Source: Tetradesmus obliquus (lineage: Eukaryota; Chlorophyta; Chlorophyceae; Sphaeropleales; Scenedesmaceae). Taken from it: 64,000 nucleotides of DNA. The position numbers and the translations under genes are program-made. Positions 1,864 to 63,551 of this stretch are shown here, in pieces (within the stretch, counting starts at the first letter, position 1; each line of letters starts with the position of its first letter). The stretch is taken from assembly GCA_030272155.1 (NCBI GenBank), contig CP126200.1, positions 5,406,001-5,470,000 of the forward strand. Direction: 5' to 3'. A model generated the notes under the pieces. The model did not search any database and had not been told where the DNA came from. It saw nothing but the letters and a program-made list of their open reading frames with translations.

Positions 1864-3890
1864 GTCTGCTGTTTGCTGTGTGACTAAGTGTGGCTACTTA
1901 TCGACTTGTAAACTTGAGTCGTCGCTTTGTGAGTACAGATCAAAGCACACTGCGCACAGCAGGCCCCAATAAAAGGCAGACACTCCTGGCGAGCAGAACA
2001 CTCCAGAGATGACAGGCACAATTTGTGGTGCCAGAGAGCCCTAGATGACACTCGAAGCAGTGGTTAGCAATAATATCCATGCACCTGTTGCCAGCATGTA
2101 CTTTGCTTTCTTGGTGCATGCCCTGCCTGATGAAAGGACGCTGGTGGAGAGTATGCTGTCGCATGCATGCCACAAGGTCTGCTGACCGGTGTCTTGACAT
2201 CATTCGATATAATCATTATCAATTATTAGTATATCAGGTCTTATACTTCCGAACTATGCACCAGGTGCATGCAACGGTTGCACTGTACAGCAACAGCTGC
2301 TGCATGTGGCCTTGTTGAAACATCTACCATCGCTTAGCATTAGGCTATGCATGCTTAGGAAGCCGTGCAGTTAGATGCACTTGGGTTGGATGCTTCAGAG
2401 CTGCGAAATGCTGCCAGGTGGCAGCCCAGCTGTGAGGCACAGGTGAGCACACCACTGCCATGCAGCAGGAGCGGCTTGCTTGCTTTGCTTTGTCTGCCCC
2501 TGCCTCATTGAGCCTGCCTGTTAGACCTGTTTTAGGGACCTCTTTCAGATGCACAGATGAGACAGTGCATCTGCAGACGTGGACATGAATAGAAGTAGCA
2601 AATGTCACAGTTCAACACGCTGCAGAACAACCATCATATGTTGAAGTATGACCAGCAGCCATGCACATCCCTCATTTGGCAAGGAAGCCGCAGCATAGCA
2701 CACAACACATTGCATTGCGTCAGGCTCCTGGCTAACATGCAGCCGGTGGTGAGAATACAAGCATGATTTACACGTGCACATGTGTGCAAAATTCAGGCAG
2801 TGGCAGCGGCAGCCACAGCTGTTCATATATGTTTCAAACCCTGACAAGTTGTCCAGGTGTCAGCCGCAACAATCAATTGTCTGCAGACCCATAATCGATG
2901 CCAAGAATGTCCATAGTAGTGCAGTGCTGCAGCACGGGATGGCTGCAGTCACCTCAGGATGCGTAGGGTGCAACCGTTGCTCCATCAACCCATGTACATG
3001 TTGCCGTGCCACAGCTGCGTGGCAGCCACAGCAACCATGGGCACAACACACACGGTTTACAAGTACAGCAACACACTGAACACAGTGGCCTCAGATGCTT
3101 GCTGCATATGTGGCTTTCTGCAGTGCACATCCAGCATGAGCATGATGCACCAGGCTGGCGTCCAGGACATGCCACAGACTGGGCGGCAGCCACCCTGCAC
3201 AACACACACGGCGTGCAAGCTGCAGCAGCGCAGCACACTGACCTCAGCTGTATGCATGCGTGGCTGCCTCAGGGGTGCCTGCAGCACGGAAACTCTGCAC
3301 CAGGCTGGCGCCCAGAAGTGGCTTGCAGATGCTGTGCGGTGCAAAGCTGCCACTGCGCCAAGTGCACCGCAGCAATGGCACGACCTGTGGTGGAGCACCA
3401 GCAGCAACTGTTTATAACCTGGGCCCGCTGGCGAGCGCGTTGCTTCCATAGCTGATGACATGCAGCCCGGCAGCTGAAGGACAGCAAGTGGAAGCCGGCT
3501 GCGCCGACAAGGAAGGACAACAGCTGGGCTAGCTGCTCGCAACTACCTCACCAGAAACAAACATCACACTGCATTGCCTATGGCAGCACTATTCTAGACG
3601 CACTTGCCACTGTGGACTGACGCCGTCATACTGGTCATCATCAGCGCGGGTGGTCCACGAGGATGCAGCACTCAATCCCGCAGTGCAGCAACAGCGGCAT
3701 CATGTTGCTGCTGCTGCGCTGACAGTTGGTCCAGCTGCTTGCGACTGCCTCCACACCGTGCATCCACAACAGTCATCGATGCTGCGCTGCCCACGCAACC
3801 AACAAAAAACACATCACGCTTCTGCCCACGCCATCATACGTGAACTAAGCGACCTGTTCAATAGAAACTCAACCCCACATTGCCGCCGCG
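1864..3890. other. Gene-poor stretch with diverged tandem duplications
   Basis: I see no convincing gene. About 3041-3190 and 3198-3330 are diverged tandem copies of a roughly 157-bp unit; both contain CACAACACACACGG and CACCAGGCTGGCG. At 3642-3666 there is a diverged copy of the end of the SpoVS-like gene's last exon (the real one is at 3891-3915). Confidence 0.5.
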
Positions 3891-5323
3891 TCAGCGCAGG
3901 CGGTCCACGTGTATGTGGAACTTGATTGCGTTGAGCTCGCCGCCCGCCTTCTGCACCTTTACAAACTCTGGCCAGGCGCGGATGTCCTTTCCATCCCCCT
4001 CCAGGTACAGCCGCGTCTGCCCGATGGCCATCACCTGAGAGTGTTGTTTGTGATTTGGCAGGGGCACATGACACAGCACATGACATAAGGCAGGTGAGAA
4101 AGCGGGTGGGATGATGTCAAGAGGCAGAGGTGTGCAGGAATAGGCGCGACGGAACACAGCTGCAGCTGGCCGATGGCCATCACCTGGCGACACAGCAGCA
4201 CACGGCACACGCGAAGCACAGGTGGCGATAGTGAGAAGCTGTCAGCTGCGTCTGCCCGATGGCCACCACCTGTATGGCGCGGGGTGGGTGCCACGGCATA
4301 GCACACGGCACATGAAGGTGCGCAGCTATGCTTTTACCATGCTTAGAATCGACTAATTTATATGACCGGTGATGGCAGGCGGGAGGATGTCAGGGGAGAT
4401 ACTTGAGAATGAAAAGCGATGCACGATCGACGCACGTGACGCTGGCAGCTGCTGCATGTTGCTGACGTGCAACCACCGCACATGCAAACAGAGCAAGCAC
4501 CACAGCCACTGTCCCCCTCACCGCGTTAAATACCCCGTCCATGCCGATGCCCACCATGCGCATCACTGAAACAAACAAACAAATAAGCGCAGCACCAGCA
4601 GCACCAGCAGCAGCAGCAGCAGCAGCGCGCTCACCGCGTTGGAGACTGCGTCCATGCCAATGCCCACCAGGCACACCGCGGCGTCCTCCCTGCAGCGGCC
4701 CGCCAGCGCCCCGGCCACCACTGTGGGCTGGCTGGTGCCAGACACCTGGCCAGCACAGCACGGCAGGCAGATTGCAGGCACAAGTCAAAGCGCCGGCAGT
4801 GCAGGCAGTTTATTGCGCCTCTTGAGCGCGACGGCCACCACGGTGGGCTGGCTGGTGCCCAACACCTGGCCAGCGCAAGGAAGGAAAAAGAAGGACAAGA
4901 CAGCACGGCAGGCCAGGGCAGAGCATGTGGGCAGGTCAGCGCAGAGCACGGCGGGCAGCAGGCGAGCATCTGAACATGCCGGGCGTAGCTGCAGCTTGCG
5001 CAGGCTTGCTGCGGCCGTGGCTGCAGGGCTGCTGCCATGTGACACTCAGCTGCTGCGCAATGCACGTCCCGCTGCTCTGTGTCAGCTCTCATGCAGCGGC
5101 ACCTGAATGACGATGCAATGCATGTTGATGCGCAGCGCTCGTCACACCTCAGCCAGCCCTGGCACGCCGCTGTGGATGCTGCAGGCAGGCGCTTGCCTCT
5201 AAGCAACTGGCAGGTCACCCCACAGCAGCTGCTGCTGCATGCAAAGTGCTCTTGCTGCTTCTGCTGCTGCTGCATGTAAGCGCTCGTGGCTGCTGCTGCT
5301 GCTGCTGCATGCAAGCTCTCATA

Positions 5324-5376
<53 letters not shown>

Positions 5377-8952: not shown

Positions 8953-9761
8953 TCACCGCACGACGCCGTTGTGTGAGCCCATGCCGTGCAGCGTCTGCAT
9001 GTTGAACTCGGGGTAAGCCGGGCCCCCGTGATCAATGTTGTCAATGCCTGCCAGCTCCGTCAGCTGGTCCACGCGCAGCAGGTTCAGCCGCCGCAGCACA
9101 AAGAACAGCGCCGCAGCCGCCACGCCGCCCACGGCCAGCGTGAGCGTGATGGCTGCGGCAGCAGCAGCAGAAGCAGAGCGCAAGGTAGGCTGAGCAGCTG
9201 TGATGCCGGTACAGCATGTAGGCACTAGTGGCAGCCGGGCTGCGCTGCCTGCTGCTATGCCAGCACTAACACCAGGTATGTGCATGAGTATGTGTGCACT
9301 CTGACGTACAGACACCACCTCACACTGTCGCAGCGCTCCACAAACAGGGCGCGCTGCGCCCTTCATACATAAACCACGCGCCGCTGTCCCCCACTCGTCT
9401 AGCAGCTCTACGCTCCACGCAACAGGCCCCATCAGCAGCCGCCCCCCCCCACTCACCCAGCACCTGCATGCCCAGCTGTGCCCAACGCTTGACTTGAAGT
9501 GCCTTCGCCACTAACTATGCACAAACATTTCACCAAAACAACCACCGCGGCCACTCACCCAGCACTTGTATGCCCAGCTGTGCCCAACCCGCGGTGCTGT
9601 AGAAGAGCCCGCCGCAGCTGCCCCCTGTGAGCAGCGCCACGTGGTGCGGCTTGGCCATGAAGCTCAGCAGCAGCAGCCCAGCCACGCCGTTGACCAGGTG
9701 CACCGCGCTGCTATCAAGCGGGTCATCAATGCCTAGCCGCAGCTGCAAGGAATGAGAGAGG

Positions 9762-9807
<46 letters not shown>

Positions 9808-11318
9808 CAAGGTGAGGGTCCAGCCACGCCGTTGACCAGGTGCACTGCTGAGGAGTCCAGTGAGTCATCAATGCCCAGCCGCAGCTGCAAGGAATGAGAG
9901 AGAGAGGGGCAGAGCAGCAGCACCACACGGTGAGGGCCCGCTACGCCGTTGACCAGGTGCAATGCCAAAAAGTCCAGCGGGGTGTGAATGCCCAGCAGCA
10001 GCGCTGTAATAGAAGTATTGTGATTGGGCATATCAAGGCTATAGAGGGCAGAGCACCTTCTCACATGCCGCTGGTCAGCTCACCAGCGCGTGTGATGACA
10101 GCGGGTACACCACGCCCGCAATGAGCCCGCACACCGCTGCCGCCCAGGGGTCCACGAAGCCGCAGATGCCCGTCACGATGACCAGCCCTGACAGCACGCC
10201 GTTGCAGCACACGCGCAGGTCGTACGTGCCTGCAGGCAGGGTGTTGACACACAGCGCGTGACTTATTGCAATGATCAGGCAGGTTTGCAAACAAGCCCCC
10301 AAGGGTGAGGGTCAGCTGCATGTGTGTGGGGTGCATCGTCATCCTGAAGATGCGTGCGCTGCATGCAGCAGCACGTTCACTGCTGGCTGCCGGCTGTCGT
10401 CCGCCTGCTAGCACAACCTCAACGCAGGAGGCAAGGCAGCATATTTAAGCAAGCCAACAACAACATATGTACATTGCTCAGAAGCGGTACATCAGTATCA
10501 GGGTACAGTTACATCCAAGCCCCAATATCAGTATTGTGAAAATGTGCTGTGCTGGCCTGTCACCCGGCTCACCTGACCACCAGCAAGCCACTGCCAGGGA
10601 AGCCAGCCCCGCTGAGCTGGCACTGAGTGTGTCCAGCAGCAACAACTCAGTCAAGTGGATCGGTGCATTCAAAACTCAACACATCTCGTTCAAGTCAAAC
10701 GGGGCTCACCTGACCACCAGCAGGCCACCGCCAAGCTGGCCAGCCCCGCGCTGCTCGCGCTGAGTGTGGTGTTCATGGCCACCAGCTGCACCGCATTGCT
10801 GGGGGCAGTCGGCTGGTACACGTACACGCTGCCGCTGTTGAAGCCGAACCAGCCAAACCATAGCATGAACGTGCCCAGCGTGACGAACGCCATGTCGTGC
10901 CCGGGCAGGTCTTTCACTGCGCCGTCGTCAAAGCGGCCTAGGCGGGGGCCTACTGCGATGGCCCCGATGAGGCCAAACAGGCCACCTGCAGCACGCACGG
11001 CAGCAGCAGCAGCAGTAGTAATTGGGGTGCACATCGAAGGCGCTTGCGGCTTCTGAAGCAGCGCCTGCCAGCAGTGCAGGCACTATTCAAGGGCCAGCAA
11101 CTGCAACAGCTGGACGGACCATCAAGTCTGCTATCTTTGAAGATGGTGGTGCACCACACACATGCACTTACACCACTCTCTGTGCTAGCCTGCACAGTCG
11201 GTGCTGCTGCCGCTGCTGCCATGCCCAGCCCGCTGCCGTCCCCACGCACCCAGCGCGTGCAGCGCCAGCCCTCCCCGCAGCCCTGCTATCCCTGATATGC
11301 TGAGGAGCACGGCTCGCG

Positions 11319-11363
<45 letters not shown>

Positions 11364-11568
11364 CAGCCCTGCAGAGGCAGCTGAGGCCCCCTGATACCAT
11401 TTACGCACCCAGCGCATGCACTGCCAGCCCTCCTGCAAAGTCCAGCACCCTGCATGGCCCCAGGCTGTTGCTGCTGCTGCTGCCATACCCCGCCCCCTGC
11501 CGTCCATACCCACCTAGCGCGTGCACTGCTAGCCCTCCGCAAAGTCCAGCACCCTGCAGGGCCCCAGG

Positions 11569-11609
<41 letters not shown>

Positions 11610-12370
11610 CGGCCCCCTGCCGTCAACACCCACCTAGCGCGTGCACTGCCAGCCCTCCCGCAAAGTCCAGCACCCTGCATGGCCCCAGGCTGTTGAGCCA
11701 GGAGTAGTCCACCCAGATCCAATGCACCAGCAGCGGGTGCACCAGCGCAGTGATGAGCACCGTGTACAGCGGGTACACCTGTGGAAGCAGGCACAATGCA
11801 CAGTGTTGTAGAGCAGTTGTAAAGCAGACAAGGGTGCACAGGAGCAGCAACTGAAGCAGCGCGTTGACTGGCTTGATGATGTTTGTTGTGAACAGAGTGG
11901 TAAGCTGACATGTGCAATTTAGGCGGCAGCCTCTGCAGTTGAGTTTAACCAGGCACAGCGCAGCCAGCCGCCTCACTGGCACATGTTTGTGCTGTGCTGG
12001 CAGTGATGGTCCAGCATGGACCACAGTGCTAGTTCTTGAATCAACTGACTCACCACCAGGCGCGTGCGCTCCGCTAGGCAGCCGCTGACGATGACGCAGC
12101 AGGCCACTGCAAAGGTGAAGGACAGGAACCAGGGCCGCTGGTGGCCCATGGCCAGGTCGCCCTCGTAGAAGAAGCCCGAGTAGCTGCAGGGGCGGCAGCA
12201 GCAGCAGCAGCACGTTGGGTGCTAGCTATGGCAGCCCTGGCGCAACACGCCTCACACATGCGGGTGTATTAGCGGTATGCCTGCCTTGAACCACTCCTTG
12301 TGGAGGTGTGCTGCTGCAATGTGGGTGCTCACTATGTCAGCAGCCCGCCCTGTCATTGCACCACTAGCAT

Positions 12371-13198: not shown

Positions 13199-13808
13199 GT
13201 CTGGTCTCACGTGCAGCCAGCCACGAGGCACAGGCACAGGGACCCCCGTGGCACAACTGTAGCTTACTGGCGGTGCACCACACCACCTCAGCAGGTATCT
13301 AGCTTGATAAGCATGACTAAAATATGTTTTAATGTTCAGCAGTGCGTCGGATCAGAGTTTCCATGACAGGTCAAGCGGCGACAGCAGCCCTGAATCCTTG
13401 TCCGTACGCAGACCAGCATCAAACAAGACCCGCAACAGGAGCTTGCGTTTGGGTGAAGCGATCGCGAGCCGGTATCCTTGTGTAACACCCTCTCACTGGC
13501 ATTTATCAACCAGAGCACGTGCAACAAGTATCGCTGCGCACCTTGATTCTAAAAGCTGGCACATGTTTTAGGTAGCTTGTTTGGTGTTTTCCTGCATAAT
13601 CTGGTCCCGTGGGGACCCACCAGACTGGGCCCTAGTGGGGCTCATGTTGGCGGGCTGGGCTTGCATGCAGTTGACAGAGGACCGTCCATGGCGTGCTAGA
13701 TTCCAGTTGGTTTGTATTAAAGGCCTGCTGTGACTGGGTGCTTATAGTGGTCCAGACCATGGCAGCTTAAGCCTAAGCTTTCGTCAGGCTGGCCCAGTGT
13801 AGACCCAG
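13199..13808. other. Left flank of the retrotransposon
   Basis: No gene is recognised. The AMT promoter should lie in the right-to-left reading of this stretch. The last five bases, CCCAG at 13804-13808, match the right flank of the element and are its target-site duplication. Confidence 0.5.
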
Positions 13809-14013
13809 TCTTGCGCTGGGTAAGCTGGGCTGGTGTAAGAATACTGGACTTGGGGACGAAGGCCCGTTAACATGGCCTGCCCTGCCTACGTACCAACGAA
13901 CATGTACCCTAAGACTCAGAGTAACATGCCCGAAGGATCAAAGTCCATCTACGTAGTTCTACTTAGACAGCACACTAGTTCATGGGGCTTCTAGAGTAGT
14001 GTTGCACGCAACA
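13809..14013 (-). repeat. 3' LTR of the Gypsy element
   Basis: 205 bp, identical to the 19518..19722 copy except for one transition. Directly preceded, in element orientation, by the polypurine tract. Confidence 0.95.
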
Positions 14014-14026
14014 CTCCTCCCCACCT
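14014..14026 (-). promoter_or_regulatory. Polypurine tract
   Basis: In element orientation AGGTGGGGAGGAG sits directly against the LTR start TGTTGCG. This is the expected site for second-strand priming. Confidence 0.85.
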
Positions 14027-14055
14027 AGTGGCTGACTCCTGGCAGCTAGATGCTA

Positions 14056-14772
14056 CTAGCTACACAATCTCCGTGAACGTGGCCCACGAACACGTCGGCG
14101 AGGGGCAGCACCAGCAGACGCTGCTGCTGTGCGACCGCCAAGCCCAGCCCAGTAGGCGTCAGTAGCTGTGGCAGTGACACCAACTGCATCACGCCACTCA
14201 TCGTTTTCAGGACCATAGCCCTTCCAACGAACAAGATACTGCGTAACTGAACGCCTACCAACTTTGACCTGCCGGTGCTTGAGCACCTGGTCAATCTCAA
14301 ACCACTCTCCACTTTCGCCATCATCAAACTCTAGTGGAGGTGGGGGCGGCTGCTCTCTGCCGTCCGATTTATACTCAAGCAGTAACCCAACATGAAACAC
14401 ATTGTGGCACCGCATGCTGGCAGGAAGGTCCAGGCGATATGTAACCGGACTGAGAACTTCTGCCACTCTGAAGGGACCAATGTACTTAGGCAAGAGTTTG
14501 TTAACGCCAGGCGTTTTAAGAACAATATTTCTTGCACTAAGCAACACTTGATCGCCTACTGAGAAGATAGCCTCACGGCGAGAGGGGTTGTAAATCCGCT
14601 CAGCACGCTTGCGTGCTGCCTCAAGCCGCGCCTTTGCCTTAGCGACAATTTCTTGCATTCTCGACGCAAACTCACTCGCGGGAGTGACCGTCCGTGCTTG
14701 CGTGCGGACTGCTCCTGGCAGGCGTGGGTGCAGACCGTAGTTCAGTAAGAACTGGGGAAAACGGGGTCTCAC
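14056..14772 (-). CDS. Gypsy Pol C-terminal part (integrase tail and chromodomain), out of frame with upstream Pol
   Basis: An open frame of about 238 residues overlaps the end of the main Pol frame and lies in a different frame. It continues the integrase C-terminal region (FLLNYGLHPRLPG, SVGDQVLLSARNI, LPKYIGPFRV, VTYRLDLP) and then a chromodomain: FEIDQVLKHRQVKV followed by QYLVRWKGYGPENDEW. Chromodomains at this position mark the chromovirus branch and are known to steer integration toward chromatin marks. The shift from the upstream frame occurs near 14750-14765, at a TTTTCCCC run. The methionine near 14770 is not a likely natural start; I read this as one original Pol broken by an indel. 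Confidence 0.85.
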   Translation of the reverse strand: MRPRFPQFLLNYGLHPRLPGAVRTQARTVTPASEFASRMQEIVAKAKARLEAARKRAERIYNPSRREAIFSVGDQVLLSARNIVLKTPGVNKLLPKYIGPFRVAEVLSPVTYRLDLPASMRCHNVFHVGLLLEYKSDGREQPPPPPLEFDDGESGEWFEIDQVLKHRQVKVGRRSVTQYLVRWKGYGPENDEWRDAVGVTATATDAYWAGLGGRTAAASAGAAPRRRVRGPRSRRLCS

Positions 14773-17700
14773 CTACCGCCTCGTGAACTGAGTTGTTGTA
14801 AGCAAACTCAGCCAGAGGGAGCCAATCATCCCAATCATCTTGAACTGGATTGACGTAGTGCCGTAGGTACTCCTCAAGCACTCGATTAACTCTCTCTGTT
14901 TGACCATCTGTCTGCGGGTGGAAGGCAGTGCTCATCTTGTGCCTGACACCTGTCAGCTGCATGAGAGACGACCAGAACTCACTACGGAAGCGAGTATCGC
15001 GATCGCTCACAATGCTAGCTGGCCAACCATGATACCGGAAGACATGGTCTCTGAACAGTTTTGCTGCTCCGACAGCATCAACTGTTTTTGTGCACGCCGC
15101 GAAGTGCACCATCTTTGTGAGTCTGTCACACATCACCATTATCGAATCATTACCGGCTGGAGTAGTCGGCAGACCCGTAATGAAATCCATGGACACCTCA
15201 CTCCATGGGGCTGCAGGCACCGCTAATGGCTGCAACTTCCCAATGGGTTTCTTGCCTTGAACTTTATTGCGTTGGCAGGAAGCACACGTGGTGACATATG
15301 ATGTCACTGAGCCACGCATACCTGGCCACCAATACAATCTTTGCACAGCCGCCAGCGTTTTTGTCACTCCTTTGTGACCGCTGTAGGGTGTGTCATGTAA
15401 CTCTGAGATGCAGCGCCGCTGCAGCTCTGCAGTAGGCACATACACCTGTTGCTGACGGCACCACAGACCATCTTCTGTATGCCGCAAACCAAAACGAACA
15501 ACCGCTTGTTCAAGCCCTTGCTGTTCACTACTGTAAACTGCTTGCAAAGCCTCGCGTATGTCCGTTGCGATCTGCTCGACGGCGGGACGAGTTGCGCGCG
15601 TGTCTACTGCGTCAGCCTTACTTGCAGGTACAGTGCTCTGAGCTGTCTTAGCAGGGGCAGTCCGTGACTGACCTTGTTTCTTCTTCCTGCTAAGCCTAGG
15701 GGATTCAGGAGGGGAAAAGGACCTGGCCAAGGACCTCTTTCTCTTACTGCGCCTAGGGGCACCCTCCTCAGCAATAGCTGCTAGGTACTCGAGTACAGTT
15801 TCTGAGGCCGGGACGCTACCCGCCCAACTGCCAGTTCCGGAACCTCCCACCTCAGCGTGCGCTACACGGCTTAAGGGGTCGGCGGCATTCAGCCGTCCTG
15901 CTCTGTACTCCCAAGAGTAGTCAAAGCGCTCCAAGAACTGTGACCATCGCACTTGCCGTGGAAGCAACTGTGCTTTGGATCTTAGATACTTCAATGGCTC
16001 ATGATCACTGAGGATCTTTACATGCGAGCCATCTACATAACAGCGCCAAACAGTGAGTGCATGCATCACTGCTAGCAGCTCTTTTTCTGGTGTGTGGTAA
16101 CTGACCTCGGCTGGGGTCAACTTCCGACTTTCGAAGGCGATAGGCCTTCCTTCTTGCATCAGAATTGCACCCAAGGTGTAATCTGAGGCATCGGCTATCA
16201 ACTCAAATGGCTGTGTGAAATCTGGCATTTTCAGAACTGGCGCTGATGAAAGCTTGTCTTTCAACAGCTGAAAAGCCTTATCACACGTAGCTGTCCACTG
16301 CCACGGAACATCCTTCCGTGTGAGAGCATGCAGTGGTCTTGCTATTGTGCCGTATGCATGCACAAAGCGTCTGAAATAATTTGACAGGCCTAAGAAAGAT
16401 CTTAAGTCTGACAAGTTGGCAGGTTTGGGCCACTCCTGCACAATCTTGACTTTTCTTGGATCCACACGGATGCCTTCCTTGCTTACCATGTGTCCCAAGA
16501 ACTCTACCTCTGGAAGTGCAAAGTGACACTTCTTCAGCTGAGCATAGAACTTGTGTTGCTCTAGCCGCTGTAACACCATTCCTAGGTGTGTCTCGTGCTC
16601 TTCTGGAGTTTTACTGAAAATCAGTATGTCGTCCAGATAAACAAGCACAAACTTGCCAATCATATCTTGGAAAACTGTCTGCATTGTCCTGGCAAACACT
16701 GCTGGTGCGTTTGTCAGACCAAAGGGCATGACATTCCACTCATACAGGCCCATTGGGGTCCTGAATGCTGTCTTGTGCCTATCCTCCTCTTTGATGGGGA
16801 TTTGCCAATAACCTGCTGCTAGGTCAAGGCCTGAAAAGACACAAGCTCTATTTAGGGAATCTAGCAAATCGTCTATCCTTGGTAGGGGATAGCGATTCTT
16901 GATGGAGATGGTATTGAGGGCTCTGTAATCAATGCACCATCGCAAACCACCGCCTTTCTTTCTTGCAAACAAAACAGGTGCTCCAAAAGGGGAGGAAGAG
17001 GGCACTACCCATCCTTTCTCCAGGGCAAGGGTCAACTGCTTAACCAGCTCTTCCTTTTCAGGCTGTGATAGCCTGTATTGGTAACCAACTGGTGGCTGTT
17101 TACCTTGCTCAAACTCTATGGTCATGACAGGCAAACCTGGGCGATTAATTACACCATTAGGCAGCTCATCAAACACCCGTTTGTATTTGAAGAGGATCTG
17201 TTCAAGTCGCTTCTTTGGAATCAAGCAGTCATCACCAGCTGCTGATGACAAAGTGACTGCAGCAACTTGAACATCTGGCTCATCGACTTGCTTCACGAAC
17301 ACCATGAACATCTCTGTGCCCTTCTTGCGAGCAAGTCTTTTGAGCTGTAGAGCGGAAATACGTCCACTGACGACCTCCTCCCCACCTGGAGTGAACCCGA
17401 CGCGCGCATTGGATTGCAGCACCTCTACTGGAGCACTTTTGATCGTGATAGTCATCGACTTACGGCCAAAATCCAGGACAGCTGACCTACGCTGAAGCCA
17501 GTCCTGCCCCAACAGCACATCATATGTGCTATCGAGATTAAGCACCAGAAAAGTGCATACATCCTTAGCACCCTGTAGCTCAAGGCGTGCTTGACACGTT
17601 CCGAGCACTCGAACTGCTTGGCCATCGGCAAGCGCAACTGTGCGGGCTGCAGGAGTCACAGCAAGCCCCGCTCTTTGCGCAAAGTGCGCAGCAACGCAGC

Positions 17701-18451
17701 TGTGCGTAGCTCCTGAATCCACAGTAAACCGCGCTTGCTCACCAGCTAGCTCACCCGTGAAGCGCAGTGATGACACTCCTTCACTGTCTATCGTAACCGA
17801 TGGCTCTTTGTCTGAATCGTTTTTAACTAAACGACCAGCTGCTAGCGTAGCAGGTGGATCATACCACACTTGCACTGCAGTGGGAATTCCTGGCTGTGGC
17901 TTGCAGCCAGTCACTGCTGTGTACAGGCGTGTACCCATCCTGTACGATTTGAGTAACTTCATACCTTGCAGCGCTGGTTTTATCTGTTCCATTAGCTGCC
18001 GGTATTTTGGTACAACCAGAACTGCACTAGTAGTTGCTGGCTGACTGCTCTTACACTGCAGGTAATGCTGCAAGTAAGTAGTGAACTGTTCCTGTGGGGG
18101 GTCCAACCACACATGATGGCCAGCACAATTGTACTGCAGGAATGCCTTAGTGCTTGCTGAGCACCACTCTGCTGCTAGAGCATGCTGGACGCTGCCGGCA
18201 CATGCATCTAACGTAACTGTTTTGCCGGTCAAACCTGATAGCTTGGCAAACGCTGTTGCATCAAACCTACAGGCTGACCTGTCAAATGCAGCAACAGGCA
18301 CTGTCCAACGTGCACTGCTCACAGTATCTTGCTGCGAACCAGTCGGTAACACCTCCTGAACAGTGGGACCCTTCTGCTCAGTCAAAATGACATTATCTGT
18401 TACACCACTGCTGCTCCCATGCTGAAGAACAACAGCAGGCCCAGTTGGCAT
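14672..18451 (-). CDS. Gypsy Pol: protease, reverse transcriptase, RNase H, integrase
   Basis: An open frame of 1259 residues that extends upstream without a stop to the Gag amber codon at 18545-18547, in Gag's frame. Domains in order: an unusual N-terminal module with LDACAGSVQHALAAEW and WLDPPQEQF (roughly residues 80-190); aspartic protease DSGATHS near 245; reverse transcriptase with RWCIDYRALN and the catalytic YLDDILIFS near 610; RNase H with FELIADASDYTLGAIL; integrase HHCC zinc region (HDTPYSGHKG, then CASCQRNK); and the integrase core with VSMDFITGLP, IVSDRDTRF and a Glu in QTERVNRVLEEYL. It copies and integrates the element. The frame leaves the integrase near 14765 and ends in unrelated residues, so the chromodomain is detached in this copy. 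Confidence 0.95.
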   Translation of the reverse strand: MPTGPAVVLQHGSSSGVTDNVILTEQKGPTVQEVLPTGSQQDTVSSARWTVPVAAFDRSACRFDATAFAKLSGLTGKTVTLDACAGSVQHALAAEWCSASTKAFLQYNCAGHHVWLDPPQEQFTTYLQHYLQCKSSQPATTSAVLVVPKYRQLMEQIKPALQGMKLLKSYRMGTRLYTAVTGCKPQPGIPTAVQVWYDPPATLAAGRLVKNDSDKEPSVTIDSEGVSSLRFTGELAGEQARFTVDSGATHSCVAAHFAQRAGLAVTPAARTVALADGQAVRVLGTCQARLELQGAKDVCTFLVLNLDSTYDVLLGQDWLQRRSAVLDFGRKSMTITIKSAPVEVLQSNARVGFTPGGEEVVSGRISALQLKRLARKKGTEMFMVFVKQVDEPDVQVAAVTLSSAAGDDCLIPKKRLEQILFKYKRVFDELPNGVINRPGLPVMTIEFEQGKQPPVGYQYRLSQPEKEELVKQLTLALEKGWVVPSSSPFGAPVLFARKKGGGLRWCIDYRALNTISIKNRYPLPRIDDLLDSLNRACVFSGLDLAAGYWQIPIKEEDRHKTAFRTPMGLYEWNVMPFGLTNAPAVFARTMQTVFQDMIGKFVLVYLDDILIFSKTPEEHETHLGMVLQRLEQHKFYAQLKKCHFALPEVEFLGHMVSKEGIRVDPRKVKIVQEWPKPANLSDLRSFLGLSNYFRRFVHAYGTIARPLHALTRKDVPWQWTATCDKAFQLLKDKLSSAPVLKMPDFTQPFELIADASDYTLGAILMQEGRPIAFESRKLTPAEVSYHTPEKELLAVMHALTVWRCYVDGSHVKILSDHEPLKYLRSKAQLLPRQVRWSQFLERFDYSWEYRAGRLNAADPLSRVAHAEVGGSGTGSWAGSVPASETVLEYLAAIAEEGAPRRSKRKRSLARSFSPPESPRLSRKKKQGQSRTAPAKTAQSTVPASKADAVDTRATRPAVEQIATDIREALQAVYSSEQQGLEQAVVRFGLRHTEDGLWCRQQQVYVPTAELQRRCISELHDTPYSGHKGVTKTLAAVQRLYWWPGMRGSVTSYVTTCASCQRNKVQGKKPIGKLQPLAVPAAPWSEVSMDFITGLPTTPAGNDSIMVMCDRLTKMVHFAACTKTVDAVGAAKLFRDHVFRYHGWPASIVSDRDTRFRSEFWSSLMQLTGVRHKMSTAFHPQTDGQTERVNRVLEEYLRHYVNPVQDDWDDWLPLAEFAYNNSVHEAVGETPFSPVLTELRSAPTPARSSPHASTDGHSRE

Positions 18452-18544
18452 AGCAATCGCTGCACCAACTGCTACACACGCAACTGGTAAACAGAAATCG
18501 CCACTTGCAGCGTCACCGCTGCTGCTGACTGGCCCCTGGCCACC

Positions 18545-18547
18545 CTA
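18545..18547 (-). promoter_or_regulatory. In-frame amber codon between Gag and Pol (candidate read-through site)
   Basis: Gag and Pol are in the same frame, and the only stop between them is this TAG. The element-strand context is GACTAGGGTGGCCAGGGG. The 31 codons from here to the first Pol methionine at 18451 are open. The context resembles the known gammaretroviral gag-pol amber read-through site (Asp, stop, Gly-Gly-Gln-Gly). Confidence 0.6.
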
Positions 18548-19366
18548 GTCACTTTCACCGAAGCCTGGGGGCACTGCATTTGCAGGCTGAACTGGGGCCT
18601 TGCAGGCCTTGTAGTCGTGCTTGTTGCTGCTGAAGCAGCGAGCACACATCTTATTGGTCTGCAGGTAGGCAAAGTGCTCCTTTGAGCGGCGTGGCGCCCA
18701 GCCTGGCTGGCTGGCGTTGCCGCGCTGCCCTGCAGCACCTGAGCCACCTAAGCTGCTGCCGCCTGCGCCGTTACTGGCGGCGCCGCTGCTGCCAGCGCCA
18801 CTGCTACCAGCACCGCCACTGCCCTGCTGGGGCTGGCGGTTGCCAGTCTTCTGCCTCTTGAATTTGTCCATGCGGCTGCCTGTCTCGCCGGCTGCCTGGC
18901 TGACAATGTTGAGGAAGCCTGACAGCATCTTCACCTGCTCCTGCAGTTGCTGCAGCTCTTCGACTGAGACAGCTAACTCGCCACGCAGGGTGTCGACCCG
19001 CGTGCCAGCAGCTGCTGTCTCATCCTTCTGCTGCTGCAGCTGCTCCTTGGCCTGCTCTAGCTCCTCTGCGCGCTCCACCAGCCGAGCTTGAGCCTCGCTG
19101 AGCTCTTGCCGCAGCTGCTGGAAGCTCTCCCAGAGCTCATTGTGGTCGCGCGTGACAATGCCCGCAGTCTGCTCTGCGAGCTTCAGCTCAGCTTTAGCTG
19201 CTTTTACTTCGCTTTGCAGCGCTGAGAAAGCAGTGCGGATCTCTTTGGTCCTGCCCTGCCCGAGGAGCTTGGCAATGCGAACTGTTGAGGGCACAGCCTC
19301 CTCATCATCTCCTTCCTCGGAGGACAGGAGCCGTTCCTCCCGTTCCTCAACCTCGTGCTCAGCCAT
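18545..19366 (-). CDS. Gypsy Gag-like protein with coiled coil and zinc knuckle
   Basis: 273 residues starting MAEHEVEEREERLL. Residues about 30-160 are rich in Glu, Gln, Leu and Lys in heptad-like order and are probably coiled coil. A Gly/Ser/Ala-rich linker follows at about 175-215. Near the C terminus is CARCFSSNKHDYKAC, a C-x2-C-x5-H-x4-C knuckle, one residue longer in the middle than the usual CCHC. I cannot see the usual retrotransposon capsid domain, which would normally precede the knuckle. It ends in GESD before the amber codon. Position right after the 5' LTR supports a Gag role, presumably packaging RNA. Confidence 0.8.
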   Translation of the reverse strand: MAEHEVEEREERLLSSEEGDDEEAVPSTVRIAKLLGQGRTKEIRTAFSALQSEVKAAKAELKLAEQTAGIVTRDHNELWESFQQLRQELSEAQARLVERAEELEQAKEQLQQQKDETAAAGTRVDTLRGELAVSVEELQQLQEQVKMLSGFLNIVSQAAGETGSRMDKFKRQKTGNRQPQQGSGGAGSSGAGSSGAASNGAGGSSLGGSGAAGQRGNASQPGWAPRRSKEHFAYLQTNKMCARCFSSNKHDYKACKAPVQPANAVPPGFGESD

Positions 19367-19500
19367 GGCGCGCTGGCCTGACTGAAAACTTTAAAAACTC
19401 AACACACGTTCCCTTAGGGGCTTTGTGTGTACTGTATGCACTTCGCTGAGTGCGGTTGTTGAGTACGTAGTAGTACGTGCGGACTTTTTAGTCCAGGAAA

Positions 19501-19516
19501 GCTTTCTCAGCTACCA
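19501..19516 (-). promoter_or_regulatory. Primer-binding site
   Basis: One base after the LTR end, the element strand reads TGGTAGCTGAGAAAGC. A tRNA ending CUCAGCUACCA would pair with the first 11 bases. The implied A1-U72 pair is a hallmark of initiator tRNA-Met, a common primer for this group; the tRNA identity is inferred. Confidence 0.7.
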
Positions 19517-19517
19517 G

Positions 19518-19722
19518 TCTTGCGCTGGGTAAGCTGGGCTGGTGTAAGAATACTGGACTTGGGGACGAAGGCCCGTTAACATGGCCTGCCCTGCCTACGT
19601 ACCAACGAACATGTACCCTAAGACTCAGAGTAACATGCCCGAAGGACCAAAGTCCATCTACGTAGTTCTACTTAGACAGCACACTAGTTCATGGGGCTTC
19701 TAGAGTAGTGTTGCACGCAACA
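19518..19722 (-). repeat. 5' LTR of the Gypsy element
   Basis: 205 bp, one base different from the 3' LTR. It presumably contains the element promoter; I could not pick out a clear TATA box. Confidence 0.95.
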
Positions 19723-20086
19723 CCCAGCCTGGCAGCCTGCCAGACAGTCTGCGATTCAGAACCGTCCTCAAAAATTGCCACTCCAGCGCAGACAGGCGTC
19801 TGCAGGTCAGGCACGGACCATGCAGACACGCATACATCCAGTATATGTGAACGAGGGGTCTATTTTCTCAAGCAGTCCATGGCCAGCTGGCTCCTGCAGG
19901 AGCCTCCTGAGGTGTCATCTGGATGGCAGCAGGTGGCGGTGTCCAGGCTCACTGCAGTGCACCAAACGCAGCAAACCAACAAAAGTATCCTTTGCAGCAC
20001 GACCACTCGACTGGAAATAGGAAAGCAAGTGCTTGTCACTCAACAGGGCTTATGTCTTCCATGGGTTGCTCTCGTGTGTAGACCGA

Positions 20087-46295: not shown

Positions 46296-49200
46296 GTGAG
46301 GCCACACCAGCAGCTGCTCACAGGGGACTTGGAGGGTCTTGTCTGTCTGCTGCTTTTCAAACGATGTGCAGAACATTTGCAGTTAAACTGCAGACAGCTG
46401 GATGGTGTTGATGGCGTGGATGTAGTGTGCTGCAGGAGCAATCCTGCCGCAAGCCTCTTTTGACACGCAAAACTTGAACAGCTGCGAGTTTTCTTCCCCA
46501 ACTTGACTTAGTATTGTATGTTGTGAGCCATGCCTCTGTACCCTCACCTGCCCTGTGTTGACTGCACTGCAGGCTGGTGCAGGGTGCGCACTAGTTGAGC
46601 AGCAGCTTGCAGCGCAGATATGATATGATGCTTCAATGTTTGGGTTTGGTTTGGTGGAGTCGTGCAGCTGTTCATCTGCAAGGCCCACCATCAGCAGCAG
46701 CAGCAGCAACAGCGGCGGCGGCAGCGACCGCCATATTGGCGGAGCAGGAGCAGTTGCTGACAGGTGGCACCGCAAAGTAGGCGGCTGCTCACCCCTGATA
46801 CATAGCCTCGCTTTATGTGAAAGACAGCGGATTGTACAGGATTTTGCACACCAACCCTGGCAAGCTGCGTGTCTTCAAAGTTCTGCTGGTGTGTGTTGTT
46901 TGTGTACTGTGAGCCGCAGTGGTTGGTGTATTGTACTTGTAGTCAATTGGGAGGAGATGCGACCTTGCATAGCGCGTGGCTTGCGCCCAACGTAAGCCGC
47001 ACCCATCCAGCACAGCATGTAAAAGGACGAATGCGCACGGCTCCAGGATCGAGGTGAATGCATAGCTACACACCTTCAAGCAAACCTGACGGCATGTGCT
47101 TTGCTGTCATCTGTGCATGCGCCAATGGCCAGGCTCTGTGGTCTTCACAACCTCTTGCCATCAACTGACGGTCAGCTCACTTGATTCAGAGGTTTGCCTG
47201 GTGTGCTGGGAGGCGTCACTGCAGTGTAAAGATGGACAGGGCAACCTGCAGTGTGCCATGGCAGGGCCCCAGGGCCCGGACCAAGGCAAGCACTCATCAA
47301 CTACTGCTGTTGTGCTCACCTGGCAAACCTCTTCCCCCCTCTCCCTCTACTCTTGAAAAGGGACAATCACGTTACCCATCAAGTCATAGCATGGAGGTGA
47401 GGGAGCAGCAGAATTAACGAACGCCACTCATTTAAAGTTTGACTTCCATTTGCTGTTCGAGTGCACAAACAAACAAATGCCCTTGTAGATAAAGTATGCA
47501 CCCAACCGCTGACACCTTGCCATCATGCAACATAGGTGCAATAATGCAAAACAGTACATTGCGCTGTGTAGGCGCGTGTGTGAGCTGTGCGCACATGTGT
47601 GGCACCTGTAAAGGGTGACGCGGCAAGCTGCGCCTGTCTGCTCAGTGGTGAGCCTCATCTGCCTGCGCTGCAGCTAAGCTGCAGCCGGCTGTGCAAGGCT
47701 GCTGTTCCGGCCCAGCCGGCTGTGCAAGGCGCCTGCCGGCTACACAGGGCCGCCCACCAGCTCGCTACAGCCTCAGCAGAGCTGCAGGAACCTGGCTTGG
47801 GCATCCTACAGCAGAGCCTCTGCTGAGGCTGTAGCTACTAGCTGGTGGGCGGCCCTGTTCAGCCGGCAGGCGCCTTGCACAGCCGGCTAGGCCACAGCCA
47901 GCTGCAGCTGCCCATTGTGATATGCAAAAAAGGCAGTTTTACGCATGGTCGCAAATGCACAACTGCGCACCTGCAATGTGCAGCTCACCCAAGCGGGTGA
48001 TGGAGAGAACCAACATGCCTGGTGGTCAAGGCACTTTGCGGCCAAGAGAAGGTCGCGCACATGACAACGTCACCAGCATCATGTGCACATGTGGGATACC
48101 ATCCGTCACAATGAACTCATTGAAGAAGGGCCACAGCTGATTGGGCTCCTGCACAGCAGTCACACAATGACACTACCATGGCACCAGCGGCATCATCAGC
48201 ATCAACCGGTTGCGCAGTACCGCTGCTGCATGCCGTGCGGGCATGCAGCACAATCATGACAATCTGACGGTCGTTCTGTTTCTGCTGCCTCTAACAATAA
48301 TTGAAACTGCTGGTCTGCTGACCTGACAATGCAGCCATCACATGATTTTCAAAGGTCCGCCATCATTCATAGATCACTGTGCCTGTGGAATCCTACCCAC
48401 ACATTCTGACAACGGTGTATGCCCAAATCAACAATGCATGGCACAAGCTGAGAAGCCTGTATTCAACAACACACGCGTGTACACGCGCATGATGGTGGTT
48501 GAAGCCTAGCGGTAGACGCCTACACAGCATGTGCAAGAACTCACGTCATTCTCTGCATTTCTGAACCGGCAGCGGCAGCCTCAAGCCAAAGCAGCACTGC
48601 AGAGCAATGCTGTGCCAGGCTCGGGGGCGTAAGAAGCTCCTCCAGTGCTGGAGGCACAGCAATGTTTGGGGACAGCTGGCAACACAGCTACTGCCCACAG
48701 CCTGACCAACTTGGCAGGCCAATGAGCATGTCATCAACAAACACAGCTGAACCATGCAAATGCTGAGAAGAAAGTTTGCTGCTGCTATGCAGCCGCAGCA
48801 GTAGCAGCGCATCACAGTCCTACGCAAGGCCCCCCAGCACACATGCACATGCACTTCTGGGATGATGCATCAATGCAATACGCAAGTAAGACAATGCGGT
48901 GTATGGCAGCTTCAAGGCCAGGAACTGTTGTCACTTCAGCCGATAACCAAACACCATCCAGGCGACTCAGCACGTCATGCAAGTTTGGCCATCTAGCCTG
49001 CACTTGCACAGACGTGCAAACAGTGCACTGCAATCTGCTGCTAGCAAGTGTGCCGCAGCACAGCTATCAATGATGTAGTATGCCCTGATACGGAGTGCAA
49101 GCATTTGGTAAAAGACAATTCAAAAATTTCATGACAAAAGGCAGTAGTCCCAACGTTGCTTCAAACACTGTTCAGGCTGCCAATGTATGGCACCATGCTG

Positions 49201-49521
49201 TGCAACACACACTTTGTGTGACTTTGCAAGTTAAGCACAGCTAACATGCTGCGTAATTCCATACACCCATGTCTCTGTAGGGCAGCTGCGTATGTCCACA
49301 GCTGAAATGTCTCTGCAACGCGCTGTGTTACGCATGTCATGACGCATAGTAGGAGCTGTAGCATGTTGAATCACTGAGACAGACCAAGTATGTGTGTGAT
49401 CAGTGCTGCGGCACCGGCAGTCACCGTGCTGCAAGCATGTCTGCGGCTAGCACTCGTAGTAGGAGCAACTGTGTCTTTGATCAGTGCTGCTGCACTGCCA
49501 GTCGCCGCTGGCGTGGCTGGT
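46296..49521. other. Long gene-poor stretch
   Basis: I recognise no gene in 3.2 kb. The only clear structure is the long hairpin at 47709-47893. Confidence 0.5.
47709..47893. repeat. Long imperfect hairpin (arms about 75 nt, loop about 33 nt)
   Basis: 47709-47782 and 47816-47893 are inverted complements with a few mismatches; the shared core is CAGCCGGCTGTGCAAGGCGC. It could be a foldback element, or fold as an RNA precursor. A partial extra copy of the arm start lies at 47684-47702. Confidence 0.85.
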
Positions 49522-52500
49522 CTAGTACTCGTAGTAGGAATTGAAGGCCAGGCCGTGGCAGCTGGAGGGGCCCTTGGAGGCCACGGCGCTGGTGAAGTCC
49601 ACGGCACCCAGCAGCTGCAGCTTGTCGCGCGCCAGGTCAACAAAGAACAGCGACACCTTCTGGTCCGCGTTGAAGCGCAGGATGGTGCCCGGCACGTCCA
49701 GGAAGTAGGTGCTGACAGCAGCGATGCCGGTTGCTTCATCATACTTGACCACATGGCCGCCGGCATTGGCCTCAAACTGGAAGCTGCGGGGCACAACGCA
49801 GCAGGACAGGCGGCAACACAGAGGGGCAGGCAGTTGCAGTCAGCAACATGGTCAGCTGAAACGAGATAACTAATGCTCGACAGAGATGCCGCCGTTAGAA
49901 ATCGACAACGCGTGCTCCAATTACTGCTGCTTTGGCAGCAGCACCCAAACGGAAGTGAGCAAGTCGAGGTGTACTGCTGGTTTGCTGGGAGTGGGCTGTT
50001 TTGGGGCAGCATGCCAGGGAAGGCAGGGCAGGCAGTGAAAGCCTGTAAACGTCAGGCACGCAGGCAGCAGCCGCGCCGCTCACATGTCAAGTGTCTTGAT
50101 CTCCAGTGGGTCACTGATGTCCAGCAGCCGCACCTGCAGCGCGCAGCATACACAGGCAGCAAGCGCCACGTGACAACAGTAACTATAACAGCATCGGTTG
50201 ATGCATGGCGCAAGCCCAGCAAGCAGCATGTGATGGCAGCACCACAAAATGTTGCAAATGCAGCAAGGCAGAGCAACAGCAGCACAGCAGGTGCCGTCCA
50301 TGCTGCGCGAGCTGCGGGTGTGACAGCTGCATGCGCTGCGCAGCAAGCATCTGCAGCAAGCATCTGGAGCAAGCATCTAGAGCCAGCATCTGGAGCAAGC
50401 ATCTGGAGTACATCTGTGCACTGTGCTGCAGGTGCCCTCTCTTCAGTGCACGCCTGTGTGACACATGAGCTGCACGGTGCATCCAATGTATGTGCCAAGG
50501 CAATCTTGTGCATGCTATGTGTCTGTCATAGGGCTGCGCTGATAACCACAGCAGCGCAGAGGCTTGTTTCACCTGGCTGAGGCTGTATGCTGCCAGCAGC
50601 ATGCGCATGCCGCCTTTGAAGGGGTTGCTCATGATGCATGTGCCTGGCCCTGCGTTGCAGTTGTCGTCCAGGCAATATGCGCGCCTGATCTGGCCGGTCA
50701 CGCCATCAACGTGGTACCTGCAGGGCAGCACAGCCATCCAGTGGAGCCACCCTGCTGTTGTGTTGCGGGGCACTGCTGAGCATGCTGTGGGCCTGCGCCA
50801 CCACAGCACGTATGACAATGCGCGCCATATGACATTGCTGCGGAGTGGTTCTGGTTGACAGCTGCTGCTGCCACAGCACTGCTTCAAGTCTGCTGCTGCT
50901 GTGCATCATGCAGCTGCACGCACCACTGGCTGTGCTATACGCCTGTATGGCTGCATGACAACGTCACATCATTCTGGCTTTTCATTTGTTAGTGGGTCGG
51001 CAGCACTCACAGCATGCCAAGGCCGTTGGTCACCCAGAACTGAGCGATCTGCGACAGCAAGGGCAGCGGCGGCAGCAGCGTGGCACGCAGCGACAGGCTC
51101 AATCAAACGCACCAGGCGAAGCGGTTGCATACGCTGGCTGACATGCAATGTGTATCCCCACATGCCACTGGTCACTGGCCATGTTGGCATGCCAGATCAT
51201 GATGGGTGAGTATCAGCAGCACTGCCAATATTCCCTGTGTGTACCACAGCAGCCGCGGCAGCAGCAGCAGCAACACTTGCAGCAGCGCGTGTGCGCCTGG
51301 GCCCTCACCCGCTTGATGGACGTGTCCTTGTGGCCGCGGCGCACCACCATGTTGGGCGCACGGCGCGCATCCATGTTGCCTGCGGCACACAAGCAGGCGG
51401 ACAGACAGCAGCAGCAGGTCCTTGATGTCCACAAGCTTCAACACATTCTGCTGAAGACAGCAGGATACACGTGTGGATTCACACGGTCTATTCGCTGGCA
51501 TGAAACTGCCGTACAGTGGCGCATGCCAAGGTGTGTGCCCCAGCGCGCTGCCGCACCTGCGGACATGTTCTTGGGCAGGCTGAGCGTCTTGAGGATGGTG
51601 CCGGTGGAGTGCTGCCACACGCGCACAGTGTTCTGCAGGCTGCATGAATCAGCGGCGGCAGCAGCAGCAGGGGTACATGGGAGTCAGACGAACAGCAGCG
51701 TCTATGACCTCCTGCCGTATCACCGGCCATCGTACAGCAGGCATTTTGGTTCACGACCACATGTCTGCGGCTTGCACGACGCTGCAGCCAAGTCTCCCTT
51801 GACATCGCGGCAATAGATGTGCAGCACATTGGCAGCAACGCCGGCCGCTGCTCACATGGGTGTCGGGGCCTGGTTCATCTCCGTGATGATGGTGGATGAG
51901 ACGTCGATGAAGTCGCTGGTGAGGGCGCGGTCATGGTCCTCATAAAGTCGATGCCGTGGGGGTTGAGGGTTTTCTTGTTGCGGGGCGACAGGCTGTCATA
52001 CGGCGCGTACTCCTTGAGGCTGCGTGCATCGGGAGACACCACAAAGTAGCCGCCACCCTGGCTGCCTGCGGCGTGGCCGGCAGAGAGTAAAGTCAGTGTG
52101 TGGGGTAGCTATAGCTGCATACAATCAGGTGTACGGCGCAGCCCAGCATGATGCTGTCAAAAGGCTTTTAGCAAAGATTATGTTGGCAGTGCACAAATGC
52201 GGGCTGGCCGTCGCTGCTCAGCATGCAATCATCAGCATATATTTTGAAATATGTTGCTCACCTGTGCGGCCGCACATGTTGGTGACAGCAAAGCCGCCAG
52301 CCCTCAGAGAGCGGAACCTGCAGCAGTGCGGGCAGCAGCAGCAGCGCAGCAGCGGCGGCAGCAACAGTCAGCGCATGCCCCGCAGCAAAAGGGTGGACAT
52401 CTTGCAGCAGCTTGCAGCAGGCGCTTGCGCCTGCTGGCCACAAGCTGACAGCTGGGCACATAGCAGTGCAAGCATCAGCGGCAACAGGCCAGGCAGTTGT

Positions 52501-59151: not shown

Positions 59152-59201
<50 letters not shown>

Positions 59202-59574: not shown

Positions 59575-59633
<59 letters not shown>

Positions 59634-62289: not shown

Positions 62290-62544
62290 CTACGCTGCCT
62301 GCTCCAGCTTTGCGCGCTTTGCAGCAGACCCCAGCTCGCCTGGCTGGTCATCTGCTGCTGCCTCTGCACTAGCTTCACGCTTGGTGCCTGCCTGCTGCTG
62401 TGCTGCTGCTGCTACATCCTCCATCTTGCTGTCCTGCAACGCCTCAGACTTGTAGTCTGCTGCATCCTGCACTTCCTCTTTGACCACTGCACCAGCAGCT
62501 GCAGCAGGCTGCCCTTCCTGCTGCTGCAGCTGATCGCCATCAGC

Positions 62545-62577
<33 letters not shown>

Positions 62578-63551
62578 GCTAGCTGCCTGGCCTGCGGCTG
62601 GCGCTCCAGCAGCAGCAGCAGCCATCGCCGCCTCCGCATCTCCCTCCTGCTGCTGCTGCCCACCGCCGCCAGCAACCAGCATCGCCGCTTCACCGCTGCC
62701 CAGCCCAGCCTCAGCCAGGCACTTGGCCTTCACCAGTGAGCCGTCTGCCACGCCGTAGCGCTGCGCCTCATCGCCGTGGATGCGCTTTGCGCCCCTGTAG
62801 AACCACTCCTCCTTGTCTGGGTCGAAGAACTTGTCGAAGGGCTCGCCGCTGATGGCGCAGCAGGGCTGCTCAGGGTCCTCCGGCTCCAGCGCCTCCTCGC
62901 CCTGCTCCGAGTCAGAGGCCGCCTGCAAAGCAAGCAGTGGAGGTAGCACGTGGCCAGTGAAAAGCGACAGGTGCAGGTTGGTGAAGGCGGCTTGCGGAAG
63001 GTGTAGCTGCGGCTCCAGCGCCTCCTCGCCCTGCTCGGAGTCGGAGGTCGCCTGTGGGGCAGCAGGCAATGACGGTGGCTTGTAACACGGCAGTCATGAG
63101 GCAGCGAAGGTAGAAGGTAAGGCTGGAAAGTGCATGCACAGACGTGGAGGTGTCCAAGCACCTGTTATAACAGCCACACAATTGCGCACATGCTGGCTGG
63201 CAAGCTGTCCTGCAGAAAAACCTGCTGCATTTATGGTCTGCTTATCATGCGATAAAGCAGCCATTATTCTGCATGCTGCTGCCCATTGGTCAATCAGCGT
63301 TGCACTGCCATGCCTGCCACAACGCATGCCAGAGGACCCACCTCATCGCCAAATGGGTTGCTGGCGACTGCATCCTCGGTGGTCAGTGTGCCAGCGATCC
63401 AGGTGTCCACAGTCAGGTACCATGCTCGGCTTGCGCCAGCACCTGCTGCAGCGCTGCGCCGCTTGTTGCGCTGGAACTCCACATCCCTGAACTTGGCCCG
63501 GCTGGTGACTGACAGCTGCTCCAGAAGGTGCAGGACACCTGCATGTGTTTC
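62290..63551 (-). CDS. PCF11: Pcf11-like mRNA 3'-end processing factor, C-terminal part
   Basis: Two exons are certain: 63342..63551 and 62290..62922, both phase 0 (281 residues with the stop). The first gives LLEQLSVTSRAKFRDVEFQR then SRAWYLTVDTWIAGT and ends NPFGDE. The second starts AASDSEQGEEALEPEDPEQ and continues CCAISGEPFDKFFDPDKEEW then FYRGAKRI. This is the C-terminal zinc-finger region of Pcf11 (C-x-I-x-G-E-x-F plus a following W-x-Y), part of cleavage factor II. The tail is Ala/Gln-rich with acidic and Lys patches. Upstream exons with the CTD-interacting domain would lie beyond the right edge. A stretch ending at a donor near 63743 could be an upstream exon, but its phase does not match. 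A diverged copy of the last exon's start, with acceptor, is at 63005-63057. Confidence 0.75.

Follow-up and report, generated by a model that had tools for sequence, protein, structure and literature searches.

Introner elements form dispersed families that have added intron sequence many times over in algal genomes, and in tandem exon duplication, as with mutually exclusive exons, a whole exon with both of its splice sites is copied into the neighboring intron. Here we describe another arrangement, found in a 64-kb stretch of DNA of the green alga Tetradesmus obliquus (the window; C10:5406001-5470000 within a 17-contig genome of 104.66 Mb). In five of its genes, in one of them weakly, diverged copies of an exon end together with its splice site lie in the adjoining intron; we call these copies echoes. 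Like introners, echoes add intron sequence repeatedly; an echo instead resembles its own exon. The dispersed-family trait of introners was not seen in the two regions compared with the whole genome, those of the AMT and the ARM-repeat genes. The ARM-gene region matched one place, itself, while the AMT region matched 16: itself, three at C10:5342 kb, provisionally taken as a second AMT gene, and twelve short ones, provisionally taken as mostly triplet repeats. With mutually exclusive exons echoes share a local, directly oriented exon copy within an intron, but an echo appears to comprise one exon end and one splice site.

A tandem duplication crossing an intron-exon boundary was described in the potato RdRp gene (Ma, Lan and Niu 2016, PMC4974935). 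According to the accessible part of that paper, the duplicated sequence, as in echoes, spans the boundary and carries splicing signals; there, however, a new intron was created in a single gene, whereas in T. obliquus existing introns are lengthened at many junctions. Short local single-locus duplications in human (2009, PMC2671141; mean 162 bp and median 147 bp in the proximal group) are also short and close to their sources, also copied exons with intron splice sites, and were attributed to synthesis-dependent strand annealing (SDSA). In the accessible text of that study, the copies were sought as insertions in transposable elements, pairs lying within 50 bp of each other were left out as tandem, and partial exon/intron pieces accounted for 4 of 824 donors, whereas the copies in T. 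obliquus adjoin the source junction and nearly all touch exons. In the AGGT duplication model, as given in the accessible part of its source (PMC3443670), a tandem duplication is likewise made harmless by splicing, but there a new intron obtains both of its splice sites from the duplicated exonic AGGT, while an echo repeats one end of an existing intron. Each copy examined here carries the donor or acceptor of an existing intron, and intron gain of the AGGT type was not seen among them. No report of genome-wide junction echoes was found among the titles and abstract openings listed in searches of the open-access literature, and the accessible part of the S. obliquus AS-6-11 genome paper (PMC7590803) does not mention introns. 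The kind of event is known, as single junction-crossing duplications have been published; our searches of an open-access library brought up neither such a frequency nor such a regular step, nor the allele-like divergence reported below.

We analyzed a main sample of 264 kb, consisting of the window and two 100-kb blocks picked by position (C1:2.0-2.1 Mb and C2:2.0-2.1 Mb), and an extended sample of 314 kb to which a further 50 kb of C3 was added; the sampled sequence amounts to 0.3% of the genome. Exons were taken from a small self-trained gene-finding hidden Markov model, built on the window and the two blocks and later on the C3 sequence as well. The model produced 437 introns, then 523 with C3; it merged neighboring genes and called some echoes as exons, so that the counts given here are approximate. 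The consensus was near CAG followed by GTG(A/C)G at donors and near TGCAG followed by (G/C) at acceptors. Introns made up 62% and exons 25% of the sample. The intron-length histogram had a short peak near 60-120 nt, which may be a gene-model artefact, and we conclude no periodicity from it. SpoVS, Arm, PCFS4 zinc finger, rhodanese and LRR models of Pfam passed their cut-offs; SBP56 (19.4 vs 34) and Sulfotransfer_2 (18.2 vs 22) stayed below theirs.

In the echo scan the terminal 60 nt of an exon were compared with the adjoining 700 nt, and a score of at least 40 was counted as a match. In the main sample, an own-side copy of the exon end was found at 42 of 697 junctions (24 acceptors and 18 donors). 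None of the 697 dinucleotide-shuffled flanks reached the same score, 1 of 582 opposite-side flanks matched, and sequences from exon middles matched in none of 104 comparisons on the downstream side and none of 104 on the upstream side (0/208). A control with intron-start sequence gave 9 matches in 697. Own-side and control counts were compared by Fisher tests. The copied GT or AG was intact at 31 of the 42 matching junctions; the remaining 11 include several artefacts of the gene models, among them reciprocal matches from mis-called exons, and some of the 42 are one copy seen from both ends. The frequency of echoes is about one in twenty junctions, with 6% as the upper figure and 4.4% as the more cautious one. 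The extended sample gave 55 clusters with 69 echoes, some of them reciprocal, from 848 junctions of exons of at least 30 nt. When 676 junctions were scanned at the peptide level, there were 48 matches on the own side, 9 on the opposite side and 0 in the shuffled control. The initial annotation of the window had claimed that echoes recur in at least five genes, and had named shuffled introns as one comparison. The recurrence was confirmed, with 20 echoes in five genes (four strong, one weak), and the shuffled flanks came out in its favor.

After 32 low-complexity pairs had been removed, there were 46 direct repeats and 1 inverted repeat with copies 60-450 nt apart, pairs within arrays being counted more than once. 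Such direct orientation close to the source is a trait of junction-spanning tandem duplication. Of the direct repeats, 37 lay in echo clusters, 5 touched an exon, 3 were confined to an intron and 1 was intergenic.

The exon-derived part of an echo had a median length of 41 nt (range 25-120, where 120 was the longest stretch compared). Single steps between copies (n=32) measured 82-157 nt with a mean of 118.4 and a standard deviation of 16.0, a short proximal spacing of the kind expected of SDSA repair. Larger steps, of 202-342 nt, clustered near multiples of the single step, and eight clusters, among them those of the AMT and ARM genes, formed arrays with two or three echoes each. In one array the spacers alternated in the order a-b-a'-b', a pattern that the joint duplication of two units would give. 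The step was divisible by three in 6 of 32 cases (p = 0.054).

In the 42 matches (artefacts included), identity on the exon side was 0.8-0.9 over the first 20 nt, while ungapped identity on the intron side fell to 0.39 by 10-15 nt and to about 0.32 beyond 20 nt. This drop rules out, for most pairs, a simple recent tandem duplication as the whole account. For the more detailed comparisons we used 43 clusters with exons of at least 100 nt (12 clusters with shorter exons were dropped) and echoes scoring at least 40 (45 of 55). In gapped junction-anchored alignments the intron side scored above mismatched pairs in 41 of these 45, with z>3 in 16, which supports a duplicated unit that straddles the junction. 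We read the pattern as one of old tandem units whose spacers have decayed; young, nearly complete units exist as well, such as that in block B2 at 47636-48073 (99% identity). The intron-side homology, the narrow step, the arrays and this full unit speak for tandem duplication across the junction, as the initial annotation had proposed. The copied splice dinucleotide was intact in 40 of the 45 echoes, as expected from a change of about 4% per site, so there is no sign that echo splice sites are specially retained. One-base indels were the only ones found, 11 in the 45 echoes and 12 when echoes scoring at least 36 were included.

We consider the following sequence of events the best explanation and a likely one. 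Short tandem duplications of about 80-160 nt per step would arise repeatedly across exon-intron junctions, each unit comprising the first or last part of an exon, the splice site and some adjoining intron. Splicing would retain the copy joined to the remaining exon, and the other would persist within the intron as an echo that brings a surplus splice site. Each duplication would thus lengthen the intron by one unit, repetition would produce arrays, and the echoes would then decay. The source may be templated double-strand-break repair, in which aborted strand-annealing synthesis is followed by end joining; this step is the inferred part, and repair fits better than transposition because of the unit size, the closeness and the direct orientation of the copies. 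Duplication, removal by splicing and decay explain the position, step, arrays, indels and lost splice sites; an excess of synonymous differences, described below, needs more.

Splicing would discard the echoes, as the initial annotation also claimed, and for the AMT gene the annotated protein of a sister assembly fits this. The window's AMT protein was 100% identical (rounded), over 96% of the query, to T. obliquus OEZ85_004117 of that assembly; a second match in the same species, OEZ86_005825, is from the assembly of the window itself. The sister protein, annotated with 438 aa, contains none of the seven AMT echoes and is continuous across all four junctions concerned; as annotated, it equals the echo-free splice product. 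Another protein search returned one protein at 98%, and in a further search the best relatives (P0127 and P0128, 77%) begin too near the exon to reveal any echo ahead of it. Among the pairs read by eye, no second splice site was seen at the far end of an echo, although the gene finder treats some echoes as exons.

The differences between echo and exon were distributed as in coding sequence. In the 45 echoes, mismatches at codon positions 1, 2 and 3 numbered 30/669, 25/667 and 93/666, with 75 synonymous and 54 nonsynonymous codon changes and 1 stop. Fourfold sites differed in 66 of 381 cases and nondegenerate first and second positions in 55 of 1336, a ratio of 4.21 (bootstrap 95%, 3.03-6.22). 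The even change at all codon positions expected of a neutral, spliced-out passenger was not observed, and differences between echoes followed the same trend (9, 5 and 27 by codon position). As a reference we took a presumably serpin-like inverted paralog pair in the window, which differed at 10.3% of fourfold sites and 3.4% of first and second positions. The intron-side score averaged 30 (13 sites) for this pair compared to 10.8 (median 7.5) for echo pairs, so introns evolve faster here than fourfold sites; for a neutral echo beside a constrained exon the expected ratio would then be, by our own calculation, about 1.5 and at most 2. One case, outside the 45, is the AMT donor echo at 10573-10630 (minus strand, found by eye). 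It encodes exactly the peptide TLSASSAGLASLAVACWWS of the real exon end at 10710-10767, with 8 synonymous and 0 nonsynonymous codon differences, two of the synonymous ones being serine AGC/TCN switches. In 13 synonymous-dominated echoes (45 synonymous and 6 nonsynonymous changes), a class chosen after the fact, neither copy favored the commoner codons (23/45); the other 41 echoes had 41 synonymous and 63 nonsynonymous changes.

On these counts, echo and exon seem to differ more as two coding sequences or sister alleles would than as dead DNA would. The initial annotation had described the copies as simply hidden from protein-level selection; in that form this is not supported, since the differences concentrate at synonymous sites beyond the neutral prediction. 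Either the pair diverged while both were coding alleles, or the echo is under some other constraint. Hypermutability at third positions due to CpG or base composition was rejected, the neutral third-position share from introns of the inverted paralog pair being 0.324 against 93/148 observed. Exon-to-echo gene conversion was rejected, by reasoning only, as the single source of the conservation, since it resets all positions alike and gives no third-position excess.

One tentative answer, which may possibly account for the synonymous excess, is an exchange between exon ends and a diverged allele, at copying or later, so that the echo would preserve the other allele of the exon. A template allele already different at the time of copying clashes with a case at 62.98 kb of block B1 (outside the 45), where the real copy and the first echo differ at 1 of 60 intron-side positions and by six synonymous changes on the exon side; a later replacement of the exon only would fit this pattern. 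In a stronger form, which we regard as somewhat doubtful, the echoes would be fossils of other alleles. A strongly diverged homologous chromosome or lineage would repeatedly have supplied the exon ends, by replacement or by copying, with the other version staying behind in the intron. High heterozygosity is plausible because strain DOE0152z was assembled to 208 Mb compared to about 109 Mb for UTEX 393 (PMC5552973), and because two T. obliquus assemblies of 17 contigs, of 100.3 and 104.7 Mb, are listed in the accessible part of PMC12571836, where GCA_030272055.1 and GCA_030272155.1 are named. Our guess is that the pair represents haplotypes of a single strain.

Several observations weigh against the reading of junction-crossing duplication with allelic exchange. 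Of the 45 pairs, 15 had no recognizable intron side (z<=1). The least similar echo was the farthest one in 2 of 8 arrays, with a tie in one further array; echoes were thus not seen to be pushed outward in simple order. Duplications confined to introns were nearly absent (3/46), which plain random duplication does not explain, and the synonymous excess is not predicted by a plain hidden duplicate. Heterogeneity among echoes was not significant (p = 0.12), so a mixture of two classes is not demonstrated, and codons with multiple hits looked neutral (15 nonsynonymous vs 2 synonymous).

Part of this evidence suits purely neutral hidden duplicates, born uniformly along genes and recognizable longer where one of the two copies is a constrained exon. 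The nonsynonymous changes, the stop, the one-base indels, the multi-hit codons and the loss of splice dinucleotides at about the rate of other sites would all follow; the fourfold to nondegenerate ratio, the codon-position trend among echoes and the scarcity of intron-only duplicates would not, and we find this account unlikely. The reverse proposal, that selection keeps the echoes for use as alternative exon ends or for another function in RNA, draws on the coding-like divergence, on the several echoes that encode the real peptide exactly (10573-10630 is one) and on the mostly intact splice sites. It is rather improbable, given the 12 indels of one base and no other length, the stop, the few steps divisible by three, the echo-free AMT protein of the sister assembly, splice dinucleotides kept no better than other sites and the lack of a second splice site at the far end of copies read by eye. 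The one-base indels argue that the echoes are not translated, and the step lengths likewise disfavor translation. An assembly or polishing artefact, in which a heterozygous strain's two diverged haplotypes would have been joined one behind the other at exon ends, the only places that align, could draw on the allele-like differences, the two separate assemblies and a common short-read length close to the single step, but it is very improbable, since alleles would not carry the 54 nonsynonymous codon changes seen in echoes, nor their stop, their indels and the loss of splice sites, and arrays of up to four copies and graded intron-side homology also speak against it.

Junction-crossing duplication remains our preferred explanation, and the 20 echoes of the window illustrate it gene by gene. 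Sixteen were taken from the cluster list and four were found by eye (10573-10630, 43503-43522, 63004-63051 and 4517-4562); the list has 17 rows, and row 9686, which is the AMT acceptor array viewed from the other side, was not counted. The AMT gene (9.4-11.6 kb, minus strand) has seven echoes. The exon end with its donor at 11634-11698, where the echo-free sister protein joins, is followed by donor echoes at 11514-11578 (GT kept, one-base deletion), 11409-11473 (GT kept) and 11250-11290 (decayed, GT kept). The exon end at 10710-10767 has the echo discussed above. The exon start at 9678-9742 is preceded by an acceptor echo at 9820-9884, with serine codons TCC TCA compared to AGC AGC in the exon, and by a decayed one at 9937-10001. 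The exon end at 9559-9588, with its donor, is echoed at 9457-9486.

Seven echoes were also found in the ARM-repeat gene (41.8-43.8 kb, plus strand; Arm repeat by Pfam). Three acceptor echoes, all with AG kept, lie at 42031-42056, 41939-41964 and 41832-41857 upstream of the exon start at 42141-42166. The exon end with donor at 42248-42288 has a donor echo at 42345-42385, and the exon start at 43214-43258 an acceptor echo at 43093-43137 (AG kept). The exon end at 43427-43446, taken through the first base of the donor, is echoed at 43503-43522. For the exon start at 43969-44031, the acceptor echo at 43717-43779 is two steps upstream, with a remnant of the middle copy near 43820-43840.

The SpoVS-domain gene (minus strand) has four echoes at 4.1-4.9 kb. 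Its exon start at 4705-4745 has an acceptor echo at 4825-4865, and the exon start at 4008-4034 has two, at 4243-4269 and 4157-4183, all three with AG kept. A probable exon end at 4630-4675, with GTGAG, has a donor echo at 4517-4562; the gene finder extends this exon to 4596. The gene spans 3.9-6.8 kb and has three matches to SpoVS (stage V sporulation protein S), a family named for bacterial sporulation and found here in a green alga. The PCFS4-type zinc-finger gene (minus strand) has one acceptor echo at 63.0 kb, 63004-63051, with AG kept, for the exon start at 62875-62922. The weak case, at 23.56 kb (plus strand), is an unnamed gene with the exon start at 23756-23784 and an acceptor echo at 23561-23589, in which AG is changed to GG.

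A sixth case, in an SBP56-like gene at 49424-49575 (minus strand), is a copy of the end of the last exon including the stop codon, and not of a splice junction; it lies downstream of the gene. Block B1 likewise has echoes of a last-exon end with its stop codon downstream of a gene (87351-87422 and 87577-87648), with similarity stopping exactly at the stop codon.

Among other features of the window, the inverted gene duplication that we take to be serpin-like occupies 24565-28520 and 29409-33978 (84-90% identical), and the echo scan called no echo cluster in it. At 13805-19723, 210-base terminal repeats, 99.5% identical, surround long open frames on the minus strand; we take this to be a long terminal repeat retroelement, as the open frames read like gag and a Ty3-type pol. 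Minisatellites are present at 21380-21627 (35-base unit, 7.1 copies, 97%) and 31000-31253 (25-base unit, 10.2 copies, 91%), and CAG/CTG triplet runs are numerous across the window in exons and introns alike.

In the accessible part of a comparison of five green algae, T. obliquus had the longest introns, with a mean of 462 nt compared to 230-302 nt (PMC5966456). Echoes are a measurable route of intron lengthening in such a long-intron species. The intact-looking surplus splice sites, located about 120 nt from the real ones at approximately 4-6% of the sampled junctions, offer a natural test of splice-site choice. The codon-level divergence of apparently spliced-out copies was unexpected; if the echoes are indeed fossils of other alleles, the introns of this alga would archive coding alleles that differ from the present exons mainly at synonymous sites.

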